A stretch of 64,000 nt of DNA from Nitrosospira sp. Nsp14 (GTDB taxonomy: Bacteria > Pseudomonadota > Gammaproteobacteria > Burkholderiales > Nitrosomonadaceae). The DNA is taken from NCBI RefSeq assembly GCF_900113575.1, contig NZ_FOPV01000005.1, forward strand, positions 62,001-126,000, read 5' to 3'. This document shows, piece by piece, positions 1,805-43,794 of the stretch (its first letter is position 1; the number at the start of each line of letters is the position of its first letter). A program made the translations under genes and the position numbers. A model generated the notes under the pieces. It saw only the letters and a program-made list of their open reading frames with translations, had not been told where the DNA came from and made no database searches.

Positions 1805-4177
1805 ATGGATCCCGTTAATGACTCTGATAATCGTTCGACCGTGAGCGGCCCTTCCCGCCCAGAAGGAGCCCCAGCAAACGAGTTTACCGCCAAGCAGGCC
1901 GCGACGCAGGAACTCACCGCGGCCATGCCATACAATGCTAATAAGGCACTTGAGTACGGAGAAGTTTCTGCTGCGCCGGAAAAAGGGCAGGCAATGGAGC
2001 CCCCTGACCCTAGTGTGACCGGCAGCACCTTGACGGAAGACACCAGCTCCGACAAGACTGGCGCGGGGGAGCCGCAAGTGGGCTTCAATGCCGCCAACGA
2101 GTCGCTCGACCGGGTGCGCGCCGACTCCAGCGGCCGTGCACTGACCACCAATCAGGGGGTGCCGGTGGCGGACAACCAGCATTCATTGAAAGCTGGATTG
2201 CGAGGCCCGGCGCTGCTGGAGGATTTCATCCTGCGCGAGAAGATTACGCATTTCGACCATGAGCGCATACCCGAGCGCATCGTGCACGCGCGCGGCTCCG
2301 CCGCGCATGGGTATTTTGAATGTTATGAGTCGCTGGAGCGATACACGCGGGCGTCGCTGTTTGCCGAAGAGGGCAAGAGAACGCCGGTTTTTGTGCGTTT
2401 CTCCACCGTGATAGGGGAGCGCGGTTCGGCGGATACCGCGCGCGACGTGCGGGGCTTTGCGGTCAAGTTCTATACCGACGAAGGCAACTGGGACCTGGTG
2501 GGAAACAATATTCCGGTATTTTTTATCCAGGACGCGATAAAGTTTCCGGACCTGGTGCACGCGGCAAAACCCGAGCCCCATTTCGGGATGCCGCAAGCCT
2601 CCACCGCACATGACACCTTGTGGGATTTCATTTCGCTGATGCCCGAGTCGGCCCATATGATGATGTGGGTCATGTCGGACCGGGCGATTCCGCGCAGCTA
2701 CCGCATGATGCAGGGTTTCGGCGTGCACACTTTCCGCCTGCTCGCTGCGGATGGCAGCTCGCATTTCGTGAAGTTTCACTGGCGTCCGCTAGCCGGGACG
2801 CATTCGCTCGACTGGGACGAAGCGGTCAAGATCAGCGGAGCCGATCCGGATTTCCACCGCCGCGACCTTTGGGAAGCCATTGAATGCGGCGCATTTCCGG
2901 AATATGAGCTCGGCGTGCAGATTTTTACCGAGGCCCAGGCGGAAGGATTCAGCTTCGACGTGCTCGACGCCACCAAGATCGTCCCGGAAGAGCTGGTTCC
3001 GGTCCGGGTGGTGGGGAAAATGGTACTCAACCGCAACCCGGACAATTTTTTCGCGGAAACGGAGCAGGTGGCCTTCTGCGCCGCGCACATCGTGCCCGGG
3101 CTCGATTTCACCAATGACCCACTACTGGCGGGACGTATCCACTCGTATGTGGATACCCAGATATCCCGCCTCGGTGGGCCCAATTTCCATGAAATCCCCA
3201 TCAATTCGCCGGTTGCGCAGGCCCATAACAACCAGCGCGACGGCATGCACCGTCAAACCATCAACCGCGGCCGCGTCGCCTATGAGCCGAATTCCCTGGG
3301 CGGTGGCTGTCCGTTCCAGGCCGGAGCAGCCGGTTTCAGTTCCTTTCGGGAGCCCATGGGTGGGGACAAGGTGCGCGGCAATCCGGAGCGGTTCGCAGAC
3401 CATTACACGCAGGCAACATTGTTCTGGAATAGCCAGACACCAGTGGAAAAGGCGCACATCGTCCGGGCTTTCCGCTTTGAGCTGACGCGCGTGCAAACAC
3501 CGGCGATACGGCAGCGCATGGTGTCCGTGCTGAGGAACGTTGCACAGGAACTCGCGGAAGCGGTCGCACTGGGACTGGGAATCGACCTGCCGCCAGCGCA
3601 GCCCCGGGCCCTGCAAACCAAAGTCGTGCCCGAGGTCGAATCCTCTCCCGCGCTTTCGCTTTTCGCCCGGCCGGGGGAGCGCACGATCCGCACGCGCAGG
3701 GTGGCAATCCTGGTAGCGGATGGGGTGAACGGCCAGAGCGCGAGAGCAATCCATGCCGGGCTAGCCAGAGAGGAGGCTGTGCCCCGTTTTGTCGGCCTGC
3801 GCCTGGGACGGGTGCAAAGCACGGACGGAAACCAGATCGAGGTCGATGCGACGGCAGAGGCAATGCCCTCCGTGCTGTTCGACGCGGTGGTTGTGCCCGG
3901 TGGGCACGAGGATATGGTGAAGGTTTTCGCCAATGCCGGCCCGGTACTCGAATTTATCGGGCAGCAATACCGTCATTGCAAGCCGATCCTGGTACTGGGC
4001 AATGGCAGGGCTGTGGCCGAGCGTGCGGGCGTAAAGCTGGTGCTTCCGTCGGGCGAGCTCGATTCGGGCGTGCTTTACTTCCAGGAGGACAATTTCGGGG
4101 AGGTCCTGCCGCACTTCGTGGAGGCAATCGCCGCTCACAGGCATTTTGCCAGGGAGACTGACCCTCCCCAGGTCTAG
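1805..4177 (+). CDS. katE: Large-subunit catalase HPII
   Basis: This cytoplasmic haem enzyme breaks hydrogen peroxide into water and oxygen. It has 790 residues, slightly longer than E. coli HPII (753). An acidic, low-complexity N-terminal arm (about 1-115) precedes the catalase core. The core carries the active-site His161 in an Arg-Ile-Val-His-Ala-Arg-Gly motif, a conserved Arg-Phe-Ser-Thr-Val stretch, and the proximal haem ligand Tyr448 with Arg444 four residues before it. From about residue 630 a DJ-1/PfpI-type (flavodoxin-like) C-terminal domain follows, which is diagnostic of the large-subunit clade. The start has AAGGAAAAG upstream. The first base after its TAG stop is the start of an IS5-like terminal sequence. 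Stationary-phase or stress control is likely by analogy but is not visible here. Confidence 0.95.
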
Positions 4178-4235
4178 GGAAGCACTGAACAAATCTTCGC
4201 TGGCGCGACGGCGGCTTTGCGGGATGGGGCGCGCG
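4178..4235 (+). repeat. Solo IS5-like terminal sequence, copy A
   Basis: GGAAGCACTGAACAAATC starts directly after the catalase stop codon. It matches the left end of the element at 41845 at 16 of 18 positions. The similarity runs on for about 35 more bases (CGCTGGCGCGACG, then TTTGC and GGATGGG blocks). The four bases before it are CTAG, which fits the CTAR target rule of IS5-group elements. I find no matching right end nearby, so it is a solo or truncated end. Confidence 0.65.
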
Positions 4236-4308
4236 GGAATCGGGCGCTGGACGAACTCAACAGGGCCGTTGAAGACTGTTATCATTGCAGCATGCGATGT
4301 AATCATCC

Positions 4309-6435
4309 TTGGCCCGGGCGCCTGCTGCTCCAGTGAAAGTCTGGCCTGGCACCCCCTATCCGCTCGGCGCGACCTATGATGGCGCGGGGACGAACTTTTC
4401 GGTATTTTCCGAAGTGGCCGAGCGTGTCGAGTTGTGCCTCTTCGATGAGGCAGGCCGCGAAACGCGGGTGGCATTGCCGGAGGTCACGGGCCACTGCTGG
4501 CATGGCTATCTCCCTGGCGTGGAACCGGGGCAGCGCTACGGCTTCCGGGTGCACGGCCCATGGGCGCCGGAGCAGGGCAACCGGTGCAATCCCGCGAAGC
4601 TCCTGCTCGACCCCTATGCAAAGGGCGTCTATGGCGATATTGCGTGGGACGAAGCTGTATTTCCCTATCATTTCAATTCCGACCCCGAGGTATCCAATGG
4701 TCGGGACAGCGCCCCCTTCATGCCCCGCTGCATCGTCCACCAGCCATTCTTCGACTGGACTGGCGATCGTCAGTTGCAACGGCCCTGGAACGAAACGATT
4801 ATCTATGAGACGCATGTAAAGGGTTTTACTGCACGGCACCCCGACATTCCGCGCGAATTGCGCGGTACATACGCGGGGCTCGCTCATTCCGAGTCGATTG
4901 AATACCTGAAGAAACTCGGCATCACTGCTGTCGAGCTGATGCCGGTGCACTATTTCGTGAACGACAAGCACCTGTTGGACCAGGGGTTGAGCAACTACTG
5001 GGGCTATAACTCCATCTGCTACTTCGCCCCGCACGGCGCGTATGCCGCCGACAAGCGGCCGGGCGCCGCCGCCGCGGAGTTCAAACAGATGGTAAAAGCG
5101 CTGCACCAGGCCGGTATCGAGGTCATTCTCGATGTGGTCTACAACCACACCGGCGAAGGCAATCACATGGGTCCGGTGCTGAGCCTGCGCGGGATTGATA
5201 ACGCCTATTACTACCAGTTGATGGAAGACCGGCGCTACTACCGGGATTACACCGGCACCGGCAACTGCCTCAACATGCGCCAGCCCCACGTGTTGCAACT
5301 GATCATGGATTCACTGCGGTACTGGGTGCTGGAAATGCACGTGGACGGTTTTCGCTTCGACCTGGCTTCCGCCCTGGCGCGCGAACTGCACGAGGTACAG
5401 ATGCTGAATGCCTTTTTCGATATCATCCAGCAGGACCCGGTCACGAACCAGGTGAAGCTGATCGCCGAACCCTGGGACCTGGGCGAAGGCGGGTACCAGG
5501 TTGGCAACTTCCCGTCGGGCTGGTCCGAATGGAACGGCAAGTACCGCGACTGCATACGCAACTTCTGGCGGACGCGGGAACCCACCTTGACCGAGTTCGC
5601 CTATCGCTTCACCGGCAGCCCCGACCTCTACGCGGGCAATTCGCGCCGTCCGTTCGCCAGCATCAACTTCGTCACCGCGCACGACGGTTTCACACTGCGC
5701 GACCTGGTGTCCTACAACGAGAAACATAATGAGGCCAACGGCGAGGACAACCGCGATGGCAGCGACGATAACCGCTCCTGGAACTGCGGTATCGAGGGTG
5801 AGACCACTGATCCCGGCGTGCTCGCCCTGCGGGTCCGACAGCAACGCAATTTTCTGGCCACTTTGATGCTGTCCCAGGGCGTCCCGATGCTGGTCGCGGG
5901 GGACGAGGCAGGCCGCACTCAGCGGGGAAACAATAATGCCTACTGCCAGGATAACGAAATCTCCTGGCTGGACTGGGACAATGTAGACAAGAACCTGCGG
6001 GACTTCGTCCGCCGCCTGATTCAGTTCCGCCGCGCTCACCCCGTCTTTCGCCGCCGCCGCTGGTTCCAGGGGCAGGCCATTCACGGCGAGGGCAAGGACG
6101 ACATCGCCTGGTTCGATCCGCGCGGCGAGCAGGCGAGCGAGCAGTTATGGGAGGGAGGGGTGGTGCACAGCCTGGGGATTTTCATCAACGGGGAAAATTT
6201 TCCCAACCCCAATGCTCGGGGTGAACCGGTCACGGACGACAGCTTCTACCTGATCTTCAACGCGCACTTCGAAGACGTGGATTTCATCCTGCCGCCCAAC
6301 CGCTGGGGCATGCGCTGGCTGAAAGTGTTCGATACGGCGGAAGGATGGTCGGAAGATGGGGCCGCGCTCGAAGCCGGCGCTACCCTGTCGGTCGTGCAGC
6401 GGTCGTTCGTGCTGCTGCAGCGGCAGGCTTCATAA
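4309..6435 (+). CDS. glgX: Glycogen debranching enzyme GlgX
   Basis: This enzyme cleaves alpha-1,6 branches of glycogen or limit dextrin and frees maltodextrins. It has 708 residues, a normal length. An N-terminal CBM48 beta domain (about 10-110) is followed by the GH13 barrel. All four GH13 regions are visible: DVVYNHTGEGN, nucleophile Asp351 in GFRFDLASAL, acid/base Glu387 in IAEPWD, and Asp459 in TAHDGFTL. The family-specific NEANGEDNRDG stretch follows. The start given is a TTG; a GTG at 4333 is an alternative, and neither has a good ribosome binding site. It lies 131 bp after katE and ends at a strong terminator. Its products can feed MalQ, TreY and TreZ, encoded further on. Confidence 0.95.
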   Translation: MARAPAAPVKVWPGTPYPLGATYDGAGTNFSVFSEVAERVELCLFDEAGRETRVALPEVTGHCWHGYLPGVEPGQRYGFRVHGPWAPEQGNRCNPAKLLLDPYAKGVYGDIAWDEAVFPYHFNSDPEVSNGRDSAPFMPRCIVHQPFFDWTGDRQLQRPWNETIIYETHVKGFTARHPDIPRELRGTYAGLAHSESIEYLKKLGITAVELMPVHYFVNDKHLLDQGLSNYWGYNSICYFAPHGAYAADKRPGAAAAEFKQMVKALHQAGIEVILDVVYNHTGEGNHMGPVLSLRGIDNAYYYQLMEDRRYYRDYTGTGNCLNMRQPHVLQLIMDSLRYWVLEMHVDGFRFDLASALARELHEVQMLNAFFDIIQQDPVTNQVKLIAEPWDLGEGGYQVGNFPSGWSEWNGKYRDCIRNFWRTREPTLTEFAYRFTGSPDLYAGNSRRPFASINFVTAHDGFTLRDLVSYNEKHNEANGEDNRDGSDDNRSWNCGIEGETTDPGVLALRVRQQRNFLATLMLSQGVPMLVAGDEAGRTQRGNNNAYCQDNEISWLDWDNVDKNLRDFVRRLIQFRRAHPVFRRRRWFQGQAIHGEGKDDIAWFDPRGEQASEQLWEGGVVHSLGIFINGENFPNPNARGEPVTDDSFYLIFNAHFEDVDFILPPNRWGMRWLKVFDTAEGWSEDGAALEAGATLSVVQRSFVLLQRQAS

Positions 6436-36576: not shown

Positions 36577-38079
36577 TTAGTCGATATTTTGCGGGAAATG
36601 GCGTTGCAGCGGTTCGATCGCAGGGCCCTCGATCACCGTTCCATCGAGCGCAAAGCGGCTGCCATGGCAGGGGCAATCCCAACTCTTTTCCACGCTGTTC
36701 CAGTGCACCTTGCACTTCATATGAGTGCAGACGGGCGACACGGTCACCAGGGTCCCGTCAGGGTCTCTGTAGGTAGCGAGCGACTCGCCCCCGATCTTCA
36801 CGATTGCGCCGCTACCGGGCATGAGCTGCGACAGCGGGATCTCCGGTCGGTCAGTGACATAGTCCTTGATGAAAGATTTCATTACCGTCACATTTTCTTC
36901 CACGAAGCCCTTCGCACCTTTTATCGGCGAAAACCGGCTCGCCTTGACCATCGGTGCGAAGAGGTTGTCGCGGCCTATTATCTCGTCGGCGATGATCGAG
37001 GCCGCGACCGTGCCCCACGTAAGGCCGTCAGTCTGGAAGCCGGTGGCAATGAAGCATTCGGTAGCGTCCTTGCCGACGTAGGGCAAGCCGTCGGAGGGGC
37101 TGTAATTCTGCGCCGACCAGCGGAAGGCGATCTCGCGCACGTCGAAGTGCGCCGCAGTTGCCGCTTCAAGCCGGTCGAGGTTGATGTTGGCGTCTTCCTG
37201 CCCGGTCTTGTGCTCCTCCCCGACACAGACAAGAAAGGTTTCATTCTCGACGTCGAGGCTGCGCGCAGAAATCCTGTCCACTCCGCTGCCCCAGAAGATC
37301 CCCGTCGGAAACGAATTCCTGGCGATGCGCGTGGCAAGTCCATATTCGCGGTTCACCACCATCTTGGCCTGCACCAGGTGCAGCCCGATGGGGGAGTGAG
37401 TAGCTAATACGATTTCCTTAGCGGTGACCTTGCCGTCAGCAGTGCGGATGACCCTTCGATCCGCATCGACCTCAAGCACCTGCGAATATTCGAAGATGCG
37501 GCCGCCGTGGCCGGCCGCCTGGCGGGCCAGCTCTCGAACGTAAGCTTGTGGATGGAACTGGGCCTGGTTATCCAGAACCATCACGCGCCCACGCGGAGGG
37601 TGGAAGGGAGTCGGGAGAGTGTCTTCATAATGCACCGCCATCCCTGCGTCAAGCGAGCCCTGGTATTCGTTTTCAATGTGTTCGGTCGCATCCGGCGCCG
37701 TCGCATAACGGTATAGCGGGCAGCGGCGGAAACCGCAGCCGATTCCATATTTCTGGACCCGGCGCTCGATCTGATCGACCGCCTCCCGCCGGGCTACCGT
37801 TACAGCATGGGCCACATCTTTGTCCCATCGCTCGACAATGCCGCGGATACCGCGGCTGACGGTCTCATACAGGTTGCCGGTCGAATTGCCTGTACTGCCG
37901 CAGCCCACCTCGTGCGTTTCCAGCAATACGACGGGAATCCCCTGCTCGGCCAGATTTAAAGCAAGCGTCACCCCAGTGATGCCGCCGCCGACAATCACCA
38001 CATCGGTAGCGATCTCCTCTTGCAACATCTCAAAAGCGGCTATGGGCGCGGTGGCGCGCCAGACGGAAGTTGTATCCAC
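36577..38079 (-). CDS. FAD-dependent oxidoreductase with C-terminal Rieske domain
   Basis: I choose the GTG at 38079 (AAAGGA upstream), giving 500 residues. The frame stays open back to 38229, but that part is only the translation of a 9-bp tandem repeat and has no RBS. The N-terminus carries a DAO-type FAD site, Val-Val-Ile-Val-Gly-Gly-Gly-Ile-Thr-Gly. A long substrate domain follows. The last 60 residues hold a Rieske 2Fe-2S site: Cys-Thr-His, then Cys-Pro-Cys-His-Gly-Ser. Such fusions belong to the amine/glycine oxidase-like DadA group in the cytoplasm. The substrate is unknown. Confidence 0.9.
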   Translation of the reverse strand: MDTTSVWRATAPIAAFEMLQEEIATDVVIVGGGITGVTLALNLAEQGIPVVLLETHEVGCGSTGNSTGNLYETVSRGIRGIVERWDKDVAHAVTVARREAVDQIERRVQKYGIGCGFRRCPLYRYATAPDATEHIENEYQGSLDAGMAVHYEDTLPTPFHPPRGRVMVLDNQAQFHPQAYVRELARQAAGHGGRIFEYSQVLEVDADRRVIRTADGKVTAKEIVLATHSPIGLHLVQAKMVVNREYGLATRIARNSFPTGIFWGSGVDRISARSLDVENETFLVCVGEEHKTGQEDANINLDRLEAATAAHFDVREIAFRWSAQNYSPSDGLPYVGKDATECFIATGFQTDGLTWGTVAASIIADEIIGRDNLFAPMVKASRFSPIKGAKGFVEENVTVMKSFIKDYVTDRPEIPLSQLMPGSGAIVKIGGESLATYRDPDGTLVTVSPVCTHMKCKVHWNSVEKSWDCPCHGSRFALDGTVIEGPAIEPLQRHFPQNID

Positions 38080-38186
38080 GATATATCCTTTTTTAGATGA
38101 TTGTTTGTAATCGTCTTGCCGCACGCCACGTGCCGCAGATTCTGATCTTGATGCGACGATGCCTGGTGCGCGCGATATTCGCCTAC

Positions 38187-38231
38187 GGAACAAGGGGAAC
38201 AAGGGGAACAAGGGGAACAAGGGGAACAAGG
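38187..38231 (+). repeat. Five perfect tandem copies of a 9-bp unit
   Basis: GGAACAAGG is repeated five times without error. It lies 108 bases upstream of the GTG start of the FAD/Rieske gene, in its probable promoter or leader. The rest of 38080-38484 has a TATAAT-like box near 38305 (plus strand) but no gene. Confidence 0.95.
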
Positions 38232-38484
38232 GGCACCGGCACCGTTCTATCGTTAAACACCCACTGATTTTTTTCTGTACGCTACGGCACAGAGGAGGAT
38301 TTGATATAATGGGAACAGCCGGGAGCGCGTCCTGGGTCGCACGTCTTGGGCCGTGCTGACCGGCCGCCCGAATCGTTATCGTTTAGCCCGCGCGATGGGT
38401 GAGAGGGAAGTAGCGGGCGCTGCCAATTGGTCCTCAGTGACCTTGTGCTCAGTGACTCTTAGTGATCTTGTGTGACCCGCGCGG

Positions 38485-40624: not shown

Positions 40625-41665
40625 ATGTTCAGCAGAATTGAAAATGGGTATTTTCGCTACCAGGGCAGCCTGCTCCCGAACCTATCGGTGTTGATCTATT
40701 GCCACCTGGCCTATTTTGGCGGCGCCACGCTCGTTCTGTCGCTAAACCCCGTTTTGATGGCGGTCGGTACTGTCGCGCTGGCGCACGGCATGGTCATCGC
40801 CTCGTACCTGATCCACGACTGTGCGCACAATGCGCTGTTCAAGTCGCCGCGCCATAATGGCCTGACGGGAAGCCTGTTGAACTGGCTTACCGGCGGCTGC
40901 TATGGAACCTATGCCGAGCTGCGCGCGCAGCATATGCGTCACCATGTCGAGCACGTCGACGTCATTCGCTTCGACTACCGGCCCTATCTCGCCCGCCATC
41001 CGTTCCAGCTCAGGATTGTCCAGGCGCTCGAATGGCTGTATGTCCCGGCAGTGGAATTCATAATGCATGCCGCGCTCATGGTCGCTCCTTTTATCCTTGA
41101 GGAAAAGAAAAATCAAAGGCTGCGCACGGCCGGAATCATTCTCGTCCGTTTTAGCCTGCTGGCGGCGCTATTTGTATATTCGGCGGAGGCCTATTTGTGC
41201 TACCTCTTCGCCTACGCCATGTTCCTGACAGTGCTGCGCTTCATGGATGCGTTCCAGCACAATTACGAGGTCGTCCTGTCTGGGGGCGAGGACATCCGAG
41301 CAGTAAAACATGGTGGCGATCGGACGTATGAGCATCTGCATACATTCAGCAATCCGGTTTCGGTTGCGCATCCATGGCTGAACCTCATCTGCCTCAATTT
41401 TGGCTACCACAACGCGCATCATGCACGCCCCGCCGCGCCCTGGCATGGACTGCCTGGACTGCACCGGAAGTTGTACGGCGAAGCGTCGGAGAACGGCGCC
41501 GCGCGGATCATACCGTTCCACAAGCAGTTGGCAAGTTTCCACAACAGCAGGGTGGCGCGGGTGATGGGCGATAATAGCGAAACGCAAGGAAACCGGTTTG
41601 CGAAACGCCTGGAGCAGGGAACCGCAGTGGGCGCCAGCGGCATGTCTTTTCTCACGCCGCTTTAA
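40625..41665 (+). CDS. Membrane fatty-acid desaturase
   Basis: A 346-residue integral membrane di-iron enzyme that introduces a double bond into acyl chains. The three His boxes are in place: His64-Asp-Cys-Ala-His68, His103-Met-Arg-His-His107 and His262-Asn-Ala-His-His266. Four or more hydrophobic segments lie between them. GAGGAAAAG precedes the ATG. Its divergent neighbour is a winged-helix regulator, with a palindrome between them, so it may be controlled by that protein. The C-terminal 50 residues are polar and variable. Confidence 0.9.
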   Translation: MFSRIENGYFRYQGSLLPNLSVLIYCHLAYFGGATLVLSLNPVLMAVGTVALAHGMVIASYLIHDCAHNALFKSPRHNGLTGSLLNWLTGGCYGTYAELRAQHMRHHVEHVDVIRFDYRPYLARHPFQLRIVQALEWLYVPAVEFIMHAALMVAPFILEEKKNQRLRTAGIILVRFSLLAALFVYSAEAYLCYLFAYAMFLTVLRFMDAFQHNYEVVLSGGEDIRAVKHGGDRTYEHLHTFSNPVSVAHPWLNLICLNFGYHNAHHARPAAPWHGLPGLHRKLYGEASENGAARIIPFHKQLASFHNSRVARVMGDNSETQGNRFAKRLEQGTAVGASGMSFLTPL

Positions 41666-41844
41666 GCGGCTCTTTAAGGGGCTGCTACCAAGTAAAGCGC
41701 TGCTACCAAGGGGGTTGAGCAAGCTGCGCGAATGGAGGCGTTTCACGCACGGCAAGCACGCGAGGCGGAACGCTCTGCGCTGCGGGACCGGTAAGCCCCC
41801 GATTGAACAAAACAGTCCGAACAATCAGCCCGACGCGTCTGTAA

Positions 41845-42419
41845 GGAACCGCTGAACAAATCTCCGCTGGCGCGACGTGGTTTTGCAGGATGGGATGCGC
41901 GAAAGGCGACGACGCGAATGGTGCCGACCGCGAAGGGCCGAGCAGTGTCTTCCGAAGGAAGATGCGACCCCGTAGCGGGGTGCAAACCCCCTAATAGGTT
42001 CTTTGCGCGGTCGCGACATCCCCACCGCTACCCGATCCCTCGCTTCGCAGGGCCCCTCGGGCCACGCTCTGGGGGCGTTCCCCTTCGCTCGGAGCCTGAC
42101 AAGGCAGACCGCCCGCAAAGCCACGTCCCATCAGGGTTGCGGTAACATCGGGGGAGACCGCGAAGGGCAAAGCAGTGTCTTCCAAAGGAAGATTGCGATC
42201 CCGTAGCGGGCTGTTGGCGTCCTACGTGCACTTTGGCGCGGTCTGGCATCCCCGCCGCTGCCCGATCCCCGCTTCGCGGGACCCCTCGGGCAACGCTCCG
42301 GGGAGCCATGGCGTTGCGCTCCTCGGCATCGTAGTCCCGGCTACGACCAGCGTCGCGCGCCTTATGATCATCCCGATCTTAACAGCAGCGCGCTCAGCGA
42401 GGATTTGTTCAGCGGTTCC
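41845..42419. mobile_element. Non-autonomous element with perfect 18-bp IS5-like inverted repeats
   Basis: GGAACCGCTGAACAAATC at 41845-41862 recurs exactly inverted at 42402-42419, and the sequence just inside is also partly inverted. The 575-bp interior has no credible gene and no transposase. It is made largely of two related units. The ends match E. coli IS5 ends (from memory) at about 12 of 18 positions. Flanks are GTAA and TTTA, not a clean target duplication. It ends 97 bases before metY. Confidence 0.8.
41926..42330 (+). repeat. Two diverged copies of a hairpin-rich unit
   Basis: Unit 1 (41926 to about 42101) and unit 2 (42156 to about 42330) align along about 175 bases, 230 apart. 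In both, GACCGCG pairs with a downstream CGCGGTC. These arms enclose the hairpins CTTCC-NAA-GGAAG and CCCG-TAG-CGGG, and are followed by CCCGA...TCGGG around an inner hairpin with a TTC loop. Confidence 0.75.
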
Positions 42420-42516
42420 TTTAACATTTCCAGTTTGGCCGTCCTCGACTTTGCGCCTCGGTATGCCTTACATTATCGACTGTAAACCCCACACGAACCT
42501 GAGCAAGGAGGACCGA

Positions 42517-43794
42517 ATGAAACTGGAATCGCTGGCCCTGCACCACGGTTATCAATCCGAACCCACCACCAAGGCAGCCGCCGTTCCCATTTATCAGACC
42601 ACTTCCTATACGTTTGATAATACCCAGCATGGCGCTGACCTGTTCGACCTGAAGGTCGAGGGAAATATCTATACCCGAATCATGAATCCGACCAGCGCGG
42701 TGCTGGAGCGACGCATCGCCGAGATGGAGGGCGGTGTAGGCGCAGTTGCCGTCGCCTCGGGAATGGCCGCCATCACCTATTCCATACAATGCATCACCAG
42801 CGCCGGCGAAAATATCGTCAGCACCAGCCAGCTCTATGGCGGCACGTACAATCTGTTTGCGCATACCTTTCCGCGGCAAGGCATCGATGTGCGCATGGTG
42901 GCAAACGATGACTACGAGGACATCGAGAGGCAGATCGACGGCAATACCCGGGCGATTTTTTGTGAATCGATCGGCAACCCCTCCGGGAATATCGCCGATA
43001 TCGGCAAGCTGGCGGAGATCGCCCATCGCAATGGCGTGCCGCTGATCGTCGACAGCACCGTTTCCACGCCCTACCTGTGCCGGCCGTTCCAGCTCGGGGC
43101 CGATATCGTGGTGCATTCGCTGACCAAATATATTGGCGGCCATGGCACCACGATAGGAGGAATGATCGTGGATTCAGGGAAATTCGACTGGGTGAAACAC
43201 AAGGCACGCTTCCCCCTGATGAACGAGCCCGACCCCTCCTACCATGGCGTCGTCTACACCGAGGCCTTCGGCCCTGCGGCGTTTATTGGCCGCTGCCGGG
43301 TCGTGCCGCTGCGCAATACCGGGGCGGCCTTATCGCCGCACAGCGCATTTCTATTGCTCCAGGGCCTGGAAACGCTCGGCTTGAGGATGGAAAGGCATTG
43401 CGAGAATGCGCTGAAAGTGGCGCAGTACCTGGAAGGCCACCCCAAGGTGGAATGGGTCAATTATGCGGGCTTGCCCAATAGCAGATATCACGGCCTGTGC
43501 AACCGCATCAGCAGGGGGAAAGCCTCGGGCATACTGAGCTTTGGCATCAGAGGCGGAGCAGTTTCAGGCGGGCAGTTTATAGACGCGCTGAAGATGATCC
43601 TGCGCCTGGTAAATATCGGCGATGCCAAATCTCTTGCATGCCATCCTGCCTCTACGACGCACCGGCAACTGAACGCTGACGAGCTGAAAGCCTCCGGGGT
43701 TACCGAAGGATTGGTCAGGCTATCCGTCGGGATAGAGCATGTCGACGACATCATAACGGATATCGGCCAGGCGCTCGACGCCGTTCTTCCTTGA
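42517..43794 (+). CDS. metY: O-acetylhomoserine sulfhydrylase MetY
   Basis: A PLP enzyme that makes homocysteine from O-acetylhomoserine and sulfide. I choose the ATG at 42517 because AAGGAGG lies just upstream and the family N-terminus starts there. The frame stays open to 42175 only because it runs into the mobile element. The 425-residue protein has the PLP lysine Lys204 in His-Ser-Leu-Thr-Lys-Tyr-Ile-Gly-Gly. It also shows Asp-Ser-Thr-Val-Ser-Thr-Pro-Tyr and Ser-Val-Gly-Ile-Glu-His near the end, as expected for MetY. It is convergent with a MetE-like gene that could methylate its product. Confidence 0.93.
   Translation: MKLESLALHHGYQSEPTTKAAAVPIYQTTSYTFDNTQHGADLFDLKVEGNIYTRIMNPTSAVLERRIAEMEGGVGAVAVASGMAAITYSIQCITSAGENIVSTSQLYGGTYNLFAHTFPRQGIDVRMVANDDYEDIERQIDGNTRAIFCESIGNPSGNIADIGKLAEIAHRNGVPLIVDSTVSTPYLCRPFQLGADIVVHSLTKYIGGHGTTIGGMIVDSGKFDWVKHKARFPLMNEPDPSYHGVVYTEAFGPAAFIGRCRVVPLRNTGAALSPHSAFLLLQGLETLGLRMERHCENALKVAQYLEGHPKVEWVNYAGLPNSRYHGLCNRISRGKASGILSFGIRGGAVSGGQFIDALKMILRLVNIGDAKSLACHPASTTHRQLNADELKASGVTEGLVRLSVGIEHVDDIITDIGQALDAVLP

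Follow-up and report, generated by a model that had tools for sequence, protein, structure and literature searches.

A putative IS5-type MITE upstream of metY in Nitrosospira sp. Nsp14 and the hairpin-forming module it carries

Introduction

The window, i.e., the whole stretch of 64,000 nucleotides analysed here, contains a 575-bp sequence with inverted repeats at its ends, located between a desaturase-like gene and a metY-type gene. What is this sequence, how did it reach its position, and does it matter for metY? A sequence-only reading had described it as an IS5-like element without transposase, possibly a MITE moved by a related transposase elsewhere, and had considered that it may carry or disturb the metY promoter. 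According to our analysis it is most probably (roughly 90%) a relic of a non-autonomous IS5-type MITE that carries two modules. This value applies to the explanation as a whole, including the history of the module, and not to its single steps.

Results

Ends and Parts of the Element

The element was delimited by a repeat search of the window and by comparison of copies; modules were scored with R1, a covariance model built from 35 module copies. The parts are as follows:

41845..42419, + strand: composite MITE, two-module form, 575 bp (repeat and copy comparison)
41845..41862, + strand: left 18-bp terminal inverted repeat (inverted similarity spans 41843-41869)
42402..42419, - strand: right 18-bp terminal inverted repeat (inverted similarity spans 42395-42421)
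41845..41922, + strand: left core segment of the basic element of about 270 bp, common to module-free copies
41924..42076, + strand: module 1 (hairpin repeat of about 150 bp) at site 1, R1 score 158 bits, missing from 270-bp copies
42079..42152, + strand: middle core segment (copy comparison)
42154..42305, + strand: module 2 at site 2, R1 score 153.9 bits
42307..42419, + strand: right core segment (copy comparison)
41841..41844, no strand: left flank GTAA; the right flank is T plus TTAA (42420-42424)
4178..4235, + strand: left end of a further copy of this MITE family, truncated before the module 1 site is reached

The inverted pair 41843-41869/42395-42421 comprises 27 nt with 93% complementarity, and its 18-mer is exact at 41845-41862 (+) and 42402-42419 (-). 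With up to 3 mismatches allowed, the 18-mer has 3 matches in the window versus 0.05 expected, and none of 100 shuffles reached 3. Exact 18-mer inverted pairs at most 1 kb apart occur only here in the 64-kb window, as three overlapping registers of one repeat. The exact inverted repeat that the sequence-only reading had seen at both ends is thus confirmed, far beyond chance as judged by the shuffles. Its view of an interior without transposase also holds, as a Pfam search (E ≤ 1) with the three frames internal to the 575-bp element gave no match. While its description of the ends was correct, it had overlooked the two-module structure of the interior: the element contains direct repeats (D1-D4) with a spacing of 229-231, and modules 1 and 2 are identical in 120 of 154 aligned columns. 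The element's own 4-bp target duplication is imperfect, being decayed or shifted (GTAA versus T plus TTAA).

The metY Locus Lacks the Element in Close Relatives

The neighbourhood of the element comprises:

40625..41665, + strand: desaturase-like gene upstream of the element
42444..42476, + strand: promoter-like stretch CTCGACTTT...TACATTAT between the element and metY, common to genomes G012 and G013
42517..43794, + strand: metY-type gene downstream of the element, 425 aa, with its ATG after AAGGAGG; the name was given by the earlier reader

Judging by its protein, we take the product of 40625..41665 to be a putative desaturase. From the end of the element to the metY ATG (42517) there are 97 bases, exactly as had been stated. 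A frame running through the element into metY (42175-43794) was considered as a longer gene and rejected, since the alignments with 20 orthologues begin at residue 1, encoded at 42517.

Twenty other genomes have a full-length metY orthologue, and 8 of them have a desaturase homologue within 1.5 kb upstream of metY. The element was looked for at the same locus in these genomes and was found next to none of the 20 orthologues. When the 1.5 kb preceding metY were scanned for a MITE-type end with up to 4 mismatches, 2 of the 20 genomes gave a match and the other 18 none. In G011 (locus L215, G011:C28) a left end is located 250 bp upstream of metY and is truncated near the module 1 site; in G003 a match with 3 mismatches is found 824 bp from metY.

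By metY, the nearest genomes are G012 (93%) and G013 (92%). Both retain the order desaturase-metY with about 243 bases between the genes, versus 851 in the window, and both lack the element. The alignment of the G012 flank across the junction is moderate (GCGTCT...TTTAAC) and places the insertion site to within a few bases. The promoter-like CTCGACTTT...TACATTATC upstream of metY is aligned in G012 and near-identical over the compared stretch in G013. A scan with the sigma-70 consensus did not call this conserved stretch, nor did it call any promoter inside the element. We do not count the promoter-like stretch as part of the element because it is present in G012 and G013, which lack the latter; this likely promoter, promoter-like in terms of its conservation, is thus outside the element and older than the insertion. 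The idea that the element carries or disturbs the metY promoter is therefore unsupported, and the element appears to be a neighbour of metY rather than its control element.

Two further repeats were seen upstream in the window. A tandem 18-bp repeat at 41675-41710 (2 copies, 89% alike, TAAGGGGCTGCTACCAAG) lies just past the desaturase stop codon. The stretch 38159-38240 is a short in-frame tandem repeat, translated as NKGNKGNKG from one strand and as FPLFPLFPL from the opposite one. It covers the region in which a long frame of the minus strand (36577-38229) is predicted to start, and is possibly a slippage tract or indicates a wrong start.

Copies and Target Duplications in the Genus

The sequence-only reading had proposed a search for further copies, and this search was positive in the own genome as well as in the genus. 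Of the two findings that it had named as refuting, neither was made: there are further copies, and the element was not seen at the locus in any of the 20 other metY orthologues inspected. The own genome (G000) comprises 3.36 Mb in 54 contigs; in it, the 18-bp end has 18 matches at up to 2 mismatches, while a control pattern has 0. Eight copies are two-ended, with lengths of 270, 270, 273, 279, 347, 423, 424 and 575 bp, the window copy being the longest. Two end matches are left over: the truncated end at window position 4178 and a diverged element of about 286 bp at C7:30383. The latter (L060 2384-2669) has related ends (GGAACGGCTGAACAAGTC...) and perhaps represents an older subfamily. MITE ends are present in 21 of 23 genomes of the genus, the own one included, with 1 to 18 ends per genome except for G011 (Nitrosospira sp. 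56-18). G011 has 145 ends, or 161 with a degenerate pattern, which would correspond to some 70-80 copies if most of them are paired.

Target duplications were evaluated for 39 distinct two-ended copies (8 from G000, 2 from G015 and 29 from G011). A perfect 4-bp duplication, mostly YTAR, flanks 19 of them, the window copy not being among these; of the 39 copies, 33 have YTAR as left flank and 28 have it as right flank. Four copies have inverted rather than direct flanks (TTAG...CTAA in L092, L120 and L139; TTGA...TCAA in L104). YTAR is the target motif of IS5, according to the accessible sections of PMC10359306. The family is thus short and non-coding with terminal inverted repeats, multicopy and dispersed, with target-site duplications and an orthologous empty site, as is the case for MITEs (reviewed in PMC10969869, accessible sections).

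In G011, MITE ends at L120 3085 and L121 4129 are immediately next to the stop codons of two ordinary genes (frames 3086-4345 and 3637-4128), which is to be expected if TTAA/CTAG targets overlap stop codons. Another MITE end, at L120 845, is 16 bases from a stop codon.

An IS5-Type Transposase as the Probable Source

Profile searches of the whole own genome with PF05598, PF01609 and NF033581 gave 0 matches. The early transposase searches covered 6 genomes for DUF772 and 2 for DDE_Tnp_1. The DDE_Tnp_1_5 profile, applied to 7 genomes, had 0 matches in the own genome, but no control matched either. None of the 7 DDE_Tnp_1 loci of G011 (L113-L119) has a close MITE end; 5 of these loci were also scanned for inverted repeats. 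The long end pairs at L120 and L121 of G011 were considered as parent IS and rejected, as they enclose ordinary genes.

Parent-like IS were traced by an end scan of 39 genomes of another genus of the family, followed by an NF033581 search across the genus. The degenerate end pattern matched at least once in 30 of the 39 genomes, and L286 (1191 bp, flanks CTAA/CTAA), L280 and L275 are IS5_4 transposases or pieces thereof beside such ends. Within the genus, NF033581 (IS5_4) scored above cut-off in 5 of 23 genomes. G010 has a complete IS of 1159 bp (L291 1329-2487), which ends in GGAAGCTCTGAATAAGTC and GGAAACCCTGAACAAGTC, is flanked by CTAG on either side and contains an open IS5_4 frame of 328 aa. 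A 252-aa frame of G018 (L293), covering positions 18-259 of the 285 of the profile, adjoins GGAAGCGCTGAACAAATC, the one end found there, and transposase pieces under the cut-off in G021 (L300) adjoin it as well; GGAAGCGCTGAACAAATC is a MITE end common among the G011 copies. In the three other genomes above the cut-off, the transposases of G001 and G020 have weaker ends and that of G019 none, and closely matching ends on both sides were found in none of the three.

The suggestion that the ends are IS5-like was thus tested and stands: in relatives, IS5-family transposases lie beside the same or similar ends, and the MITE copies have YTAR duplications. In an alignment of MITE and IS ends, nothing recognisable is in common past about 18 bp. 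The assignment as IS5-related is based on the ends shared with an NF033581 IS and on the YTAR target; the source is accordingly an IS5-type transposase. Movement by a related transposase located elsewhere is supported by the copies, by YTAR, by the IS5 transposases of relatives and by the locus without element, and this transposase probably acts in trans. Present-day mobility in the own genome is doubtful because a transposase of the families searched with a working control is missing there, although the assembly consists of 54 contigs.

A Hairpin-Forming Module with Variable Occupancy

Copies of the MITE carry module 1 only, module 2 only, both or neither, and this variation is seen in more than one species. 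Within the genus, R1 matched in 21 of 23 genomes; in the rest of the family, 102 genomes gave 0 matches. These searches used stricter filters, with which weak matches may be lost. The 21 genomes have from 3 to at least 24 matches each, these counts being lower bounds. An exact module pattern was found in 42 stretches of GTDB contigs, from Nitrosospira and Nitrosovibrio plus one MAG labelled Hydrogenophilaceae.

The module folds into a stepped hairpin with two-sided changes in 3 of 15 pairs, a number reached by 17 of 500 shuffles. There are 21 cells with two-sided changes versus 6.1 in shuffles, and 98.5% of the cells pair versus 95.8% in shuffles; one of the five pair measures, "further pair types", did not exceed the shuffles (266 of 500). 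Rfam gave 0 matches, both for the window at gathering scores and for four loci at E ≤ 1, and folding z-scores of four single module copies were only -0.6 to -1.9. Based on the missing Rfam match, these z-scores and pair types no better than in shuffles, an RNA gene was rejected.

An array at L058 2500-2870 (G000:C39) contains a part of about 45 nt that matches the module end while the rest differs; parts of the module may be interchangeable. In N. multiformis Nl7 and a SCN18 MAG (L141 and L156), three diverged modules beside others form a distinct, well-supported branch of the module tree.

Single-Module Forms Resemble Recombinants

Forms of about 345 bp (341-347) correspond to 575 bp minus the 230-base spacing of the two modules. 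These forms have a single module, with the left flank of site 1 on one side and the right flank of site 2 on the other, and lack the middle segment. We followed 14 diagnostic positions that separate site-1 modules (4 rows) from site-2 modules (7 rows) in G011. Among 15 such single-module elements of this genome, 14 start with a site-1 letter and 14 end with a site-2 letter; these edge letters count little, since they are beside the flanks used for sorting. L105 alone shows one clean internal switch from site-1 to site-2 letters. In L096, L102 and L124 the switch is only at the left edge, by the classifying flank, and together with L099, which has no site-1 letter, they show site-2 letters almost throughout. 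L133 has no site-2 letter. The remaining elements are mosaics, several of the G011 single-module elements having mostly site-1 letters on the left and mixed letters on the right, and L177, one of the site-1 rows, is itself a mosaic. The 345-bp forms are most simply read as products of recombination between the two modules, a reading that is supported but not proven.

A Second MITE Family Carries the Same Module

The module is also located inside a second MITE, Y, in G001 and other genomes. Y is 361-387 bp long, and its ends (CCTAAATCCGGTAGTTG) are unrelated to those of the IS5-type MITE. They begin with CCT, and the 5-bp target duplications are A+T-rich, perfect in 26 of 35 distinct copies and matching in 4 of 5 bases in 8 more. 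All 35 copies carry the module, a biased count as all loci were module-anchored. With CCT-starting ends and 5-bp A+T-rich duplications, Y presumably fits IS1380/ISEcp1-type members.

We sorted 98 distinct module copies, a sample in which G011 and G001 weigh heavily: 34 are in Y, 13 at site 1, 12 at site 2 and 19 between the site-1 left flank and the site-2 right flank. The other 20 lie elsewhere, 14 of them adjoining another module. On the module tree, in which 57 of 95 inner branches have support below 80, Y modules form nearly one group (2 label changes versus a shuffled mean of 28.4). As modules cluster by host element on this tree, exchange between the two MITE families looks rare. Tandem modules occur inside as well as outside the MITEs: three at site 2 in Nitrosovibrio tenuis (L159), two inside Y in N. 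briensis (L164), and an array of three full units without MITE arms on contig C29 of the own genome. Such arrays are head-to-tail without spacers (e.g., G022:C13).

Discussion

Our data point to the following history of the locus. An IS5-family transposase acting in trans would have cut at the 18-bp ends, and the element would have inserted at a TTAA-like target in the gap that separates the desaturase-like gene from metY, ahead of the likely promoter of the latter. The core of the element measures about 270 bp and can carry, at two sites, the hairpin-forming module of about 150 bp, a separate repeat of the genus. The module probably spreads mainly by riding on MITE transposition, its copy number being altered by recombination and tandem duplication between module copies, and it is also carried by the second MITE family with its unrelated ends. 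We infer that the module is without essential function for the cell.

Other explanations were weighed against this one. The element could have been co-opted for the regulation of metY, with transcription set by its hairpins or by an outward promoter, and would then be kept by selection. It lies only 97 bp from metY, G011 independently has a truncated left end 250 bp upstream of the same gene, and other MITEs carry promoters, as described for BrickBuilt (PMC4596501, accessible sections). However, the promoter-like stretch is outside the element and shared with G012 and G013, which lack it, and for 18 of 20 other orthologues the 1.5 kb upstream is free of such an end, even with up to 4 mismatches allowed. 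That no promoter was called inside the element is a weak argument, since the same scan misses the conserved stretch. Altogether we regard recruitment by metY as improbable. Even less probable, to a degree that we give it hardly any weight, is an old fixed intergenic region or RNA gene that is not mobile. Its wide presence across the genus and the two-sided changes in the hairpin (3 of 15 pairs, 21 cells versus 6.1) would fit, but the scattered positions, the target duplications, the orthologous locus without element and the missing Rfam match all argue for mobility.

A more serious rival concerns the module itself. It might be its own mobile unit, or be moved by its own recombinase, inserting at GGGCG-like sites or palindrome tips independently of the MITEs. 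This would account for its presence or absence at two defined MITE sites, for its occurrence both in an unrelated MITE family and in arrays that lack MITE arms, and for the head-to-tail arrangement of these arrays without spacers. Against this, modules cluster by host element (2 label changes versus 28.4), so that transfer from one context to another looks rare, unequal crossing-over is a further way in which tandem arrays arise, and no target duplication could be fixed for the module. We consider such independent movement unlikely. Equally tentative is the picture it would lead to, a unit smaller than an ordinary transposon that inserts at hairpin tips, uses MITEs as vehicles and forms arrays: a parasite of transposon parasites within one genus. 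Spread of the module by riding on MITEs is the reading that we prefer.

Among known systems, BOX elements are closest in design. In Streptococcus pneumoniae and S. suis these are small composite repeats in which end pieces enclose modules that are predicted to fold and that vary in number; two BOX families of S. suis have different ends and the same type of boxB modules, and BOX elements are confined to few related species (PMC3049150, accessible sections). Likewise, the elements described here consist of end pieces and 0, 1 or 2 modules (3 in tandem in L159), and two families share one module. This likeness is one of architecture, between distant organisms. Unlike BOX, both MITE families have transposon-type ends and target duplications, and the module of about 150 nt occupies two separate sites in one element and also forms arrays outside MITEs. 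BrickBuilt of Porphyromonas gingivalis is MITE-like with a trapped internal repeat that was propagated through the genome, according to the sections of PMC4596501 available to us; that repeat is a 23-nt spacerless minisatellite, whereas here a hairpin unit of about 150 nt is found in two MITE families. With the IS5 family (NCBIfam NF033581) the element shares the 18-bp ends and YTAR duplications, and transposases of this family lie by the same or similar ends in relatives, but the element itself is without transposase and has no homology past the ends. We therefore file it as an IS5-related composite MITE that is BOX-like in design and not a BOX member. In kind it is an ordinary MITE; what is unusual is that it contains a module which is shared, variable and restricted to the genus. 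For Nitrosospira, our searches of open-licence papers gave no description of such elements.

For the genus, these observations show how one non-coding repeat can spread by hitching on two unrelated mini-transposons. Living genomes show the intermediates, from the bare core to forms with one module, with two modules and likely recombinants. Assembly and annotation of the genomes of these ammonia oxidisers must reckon with the module repeat.
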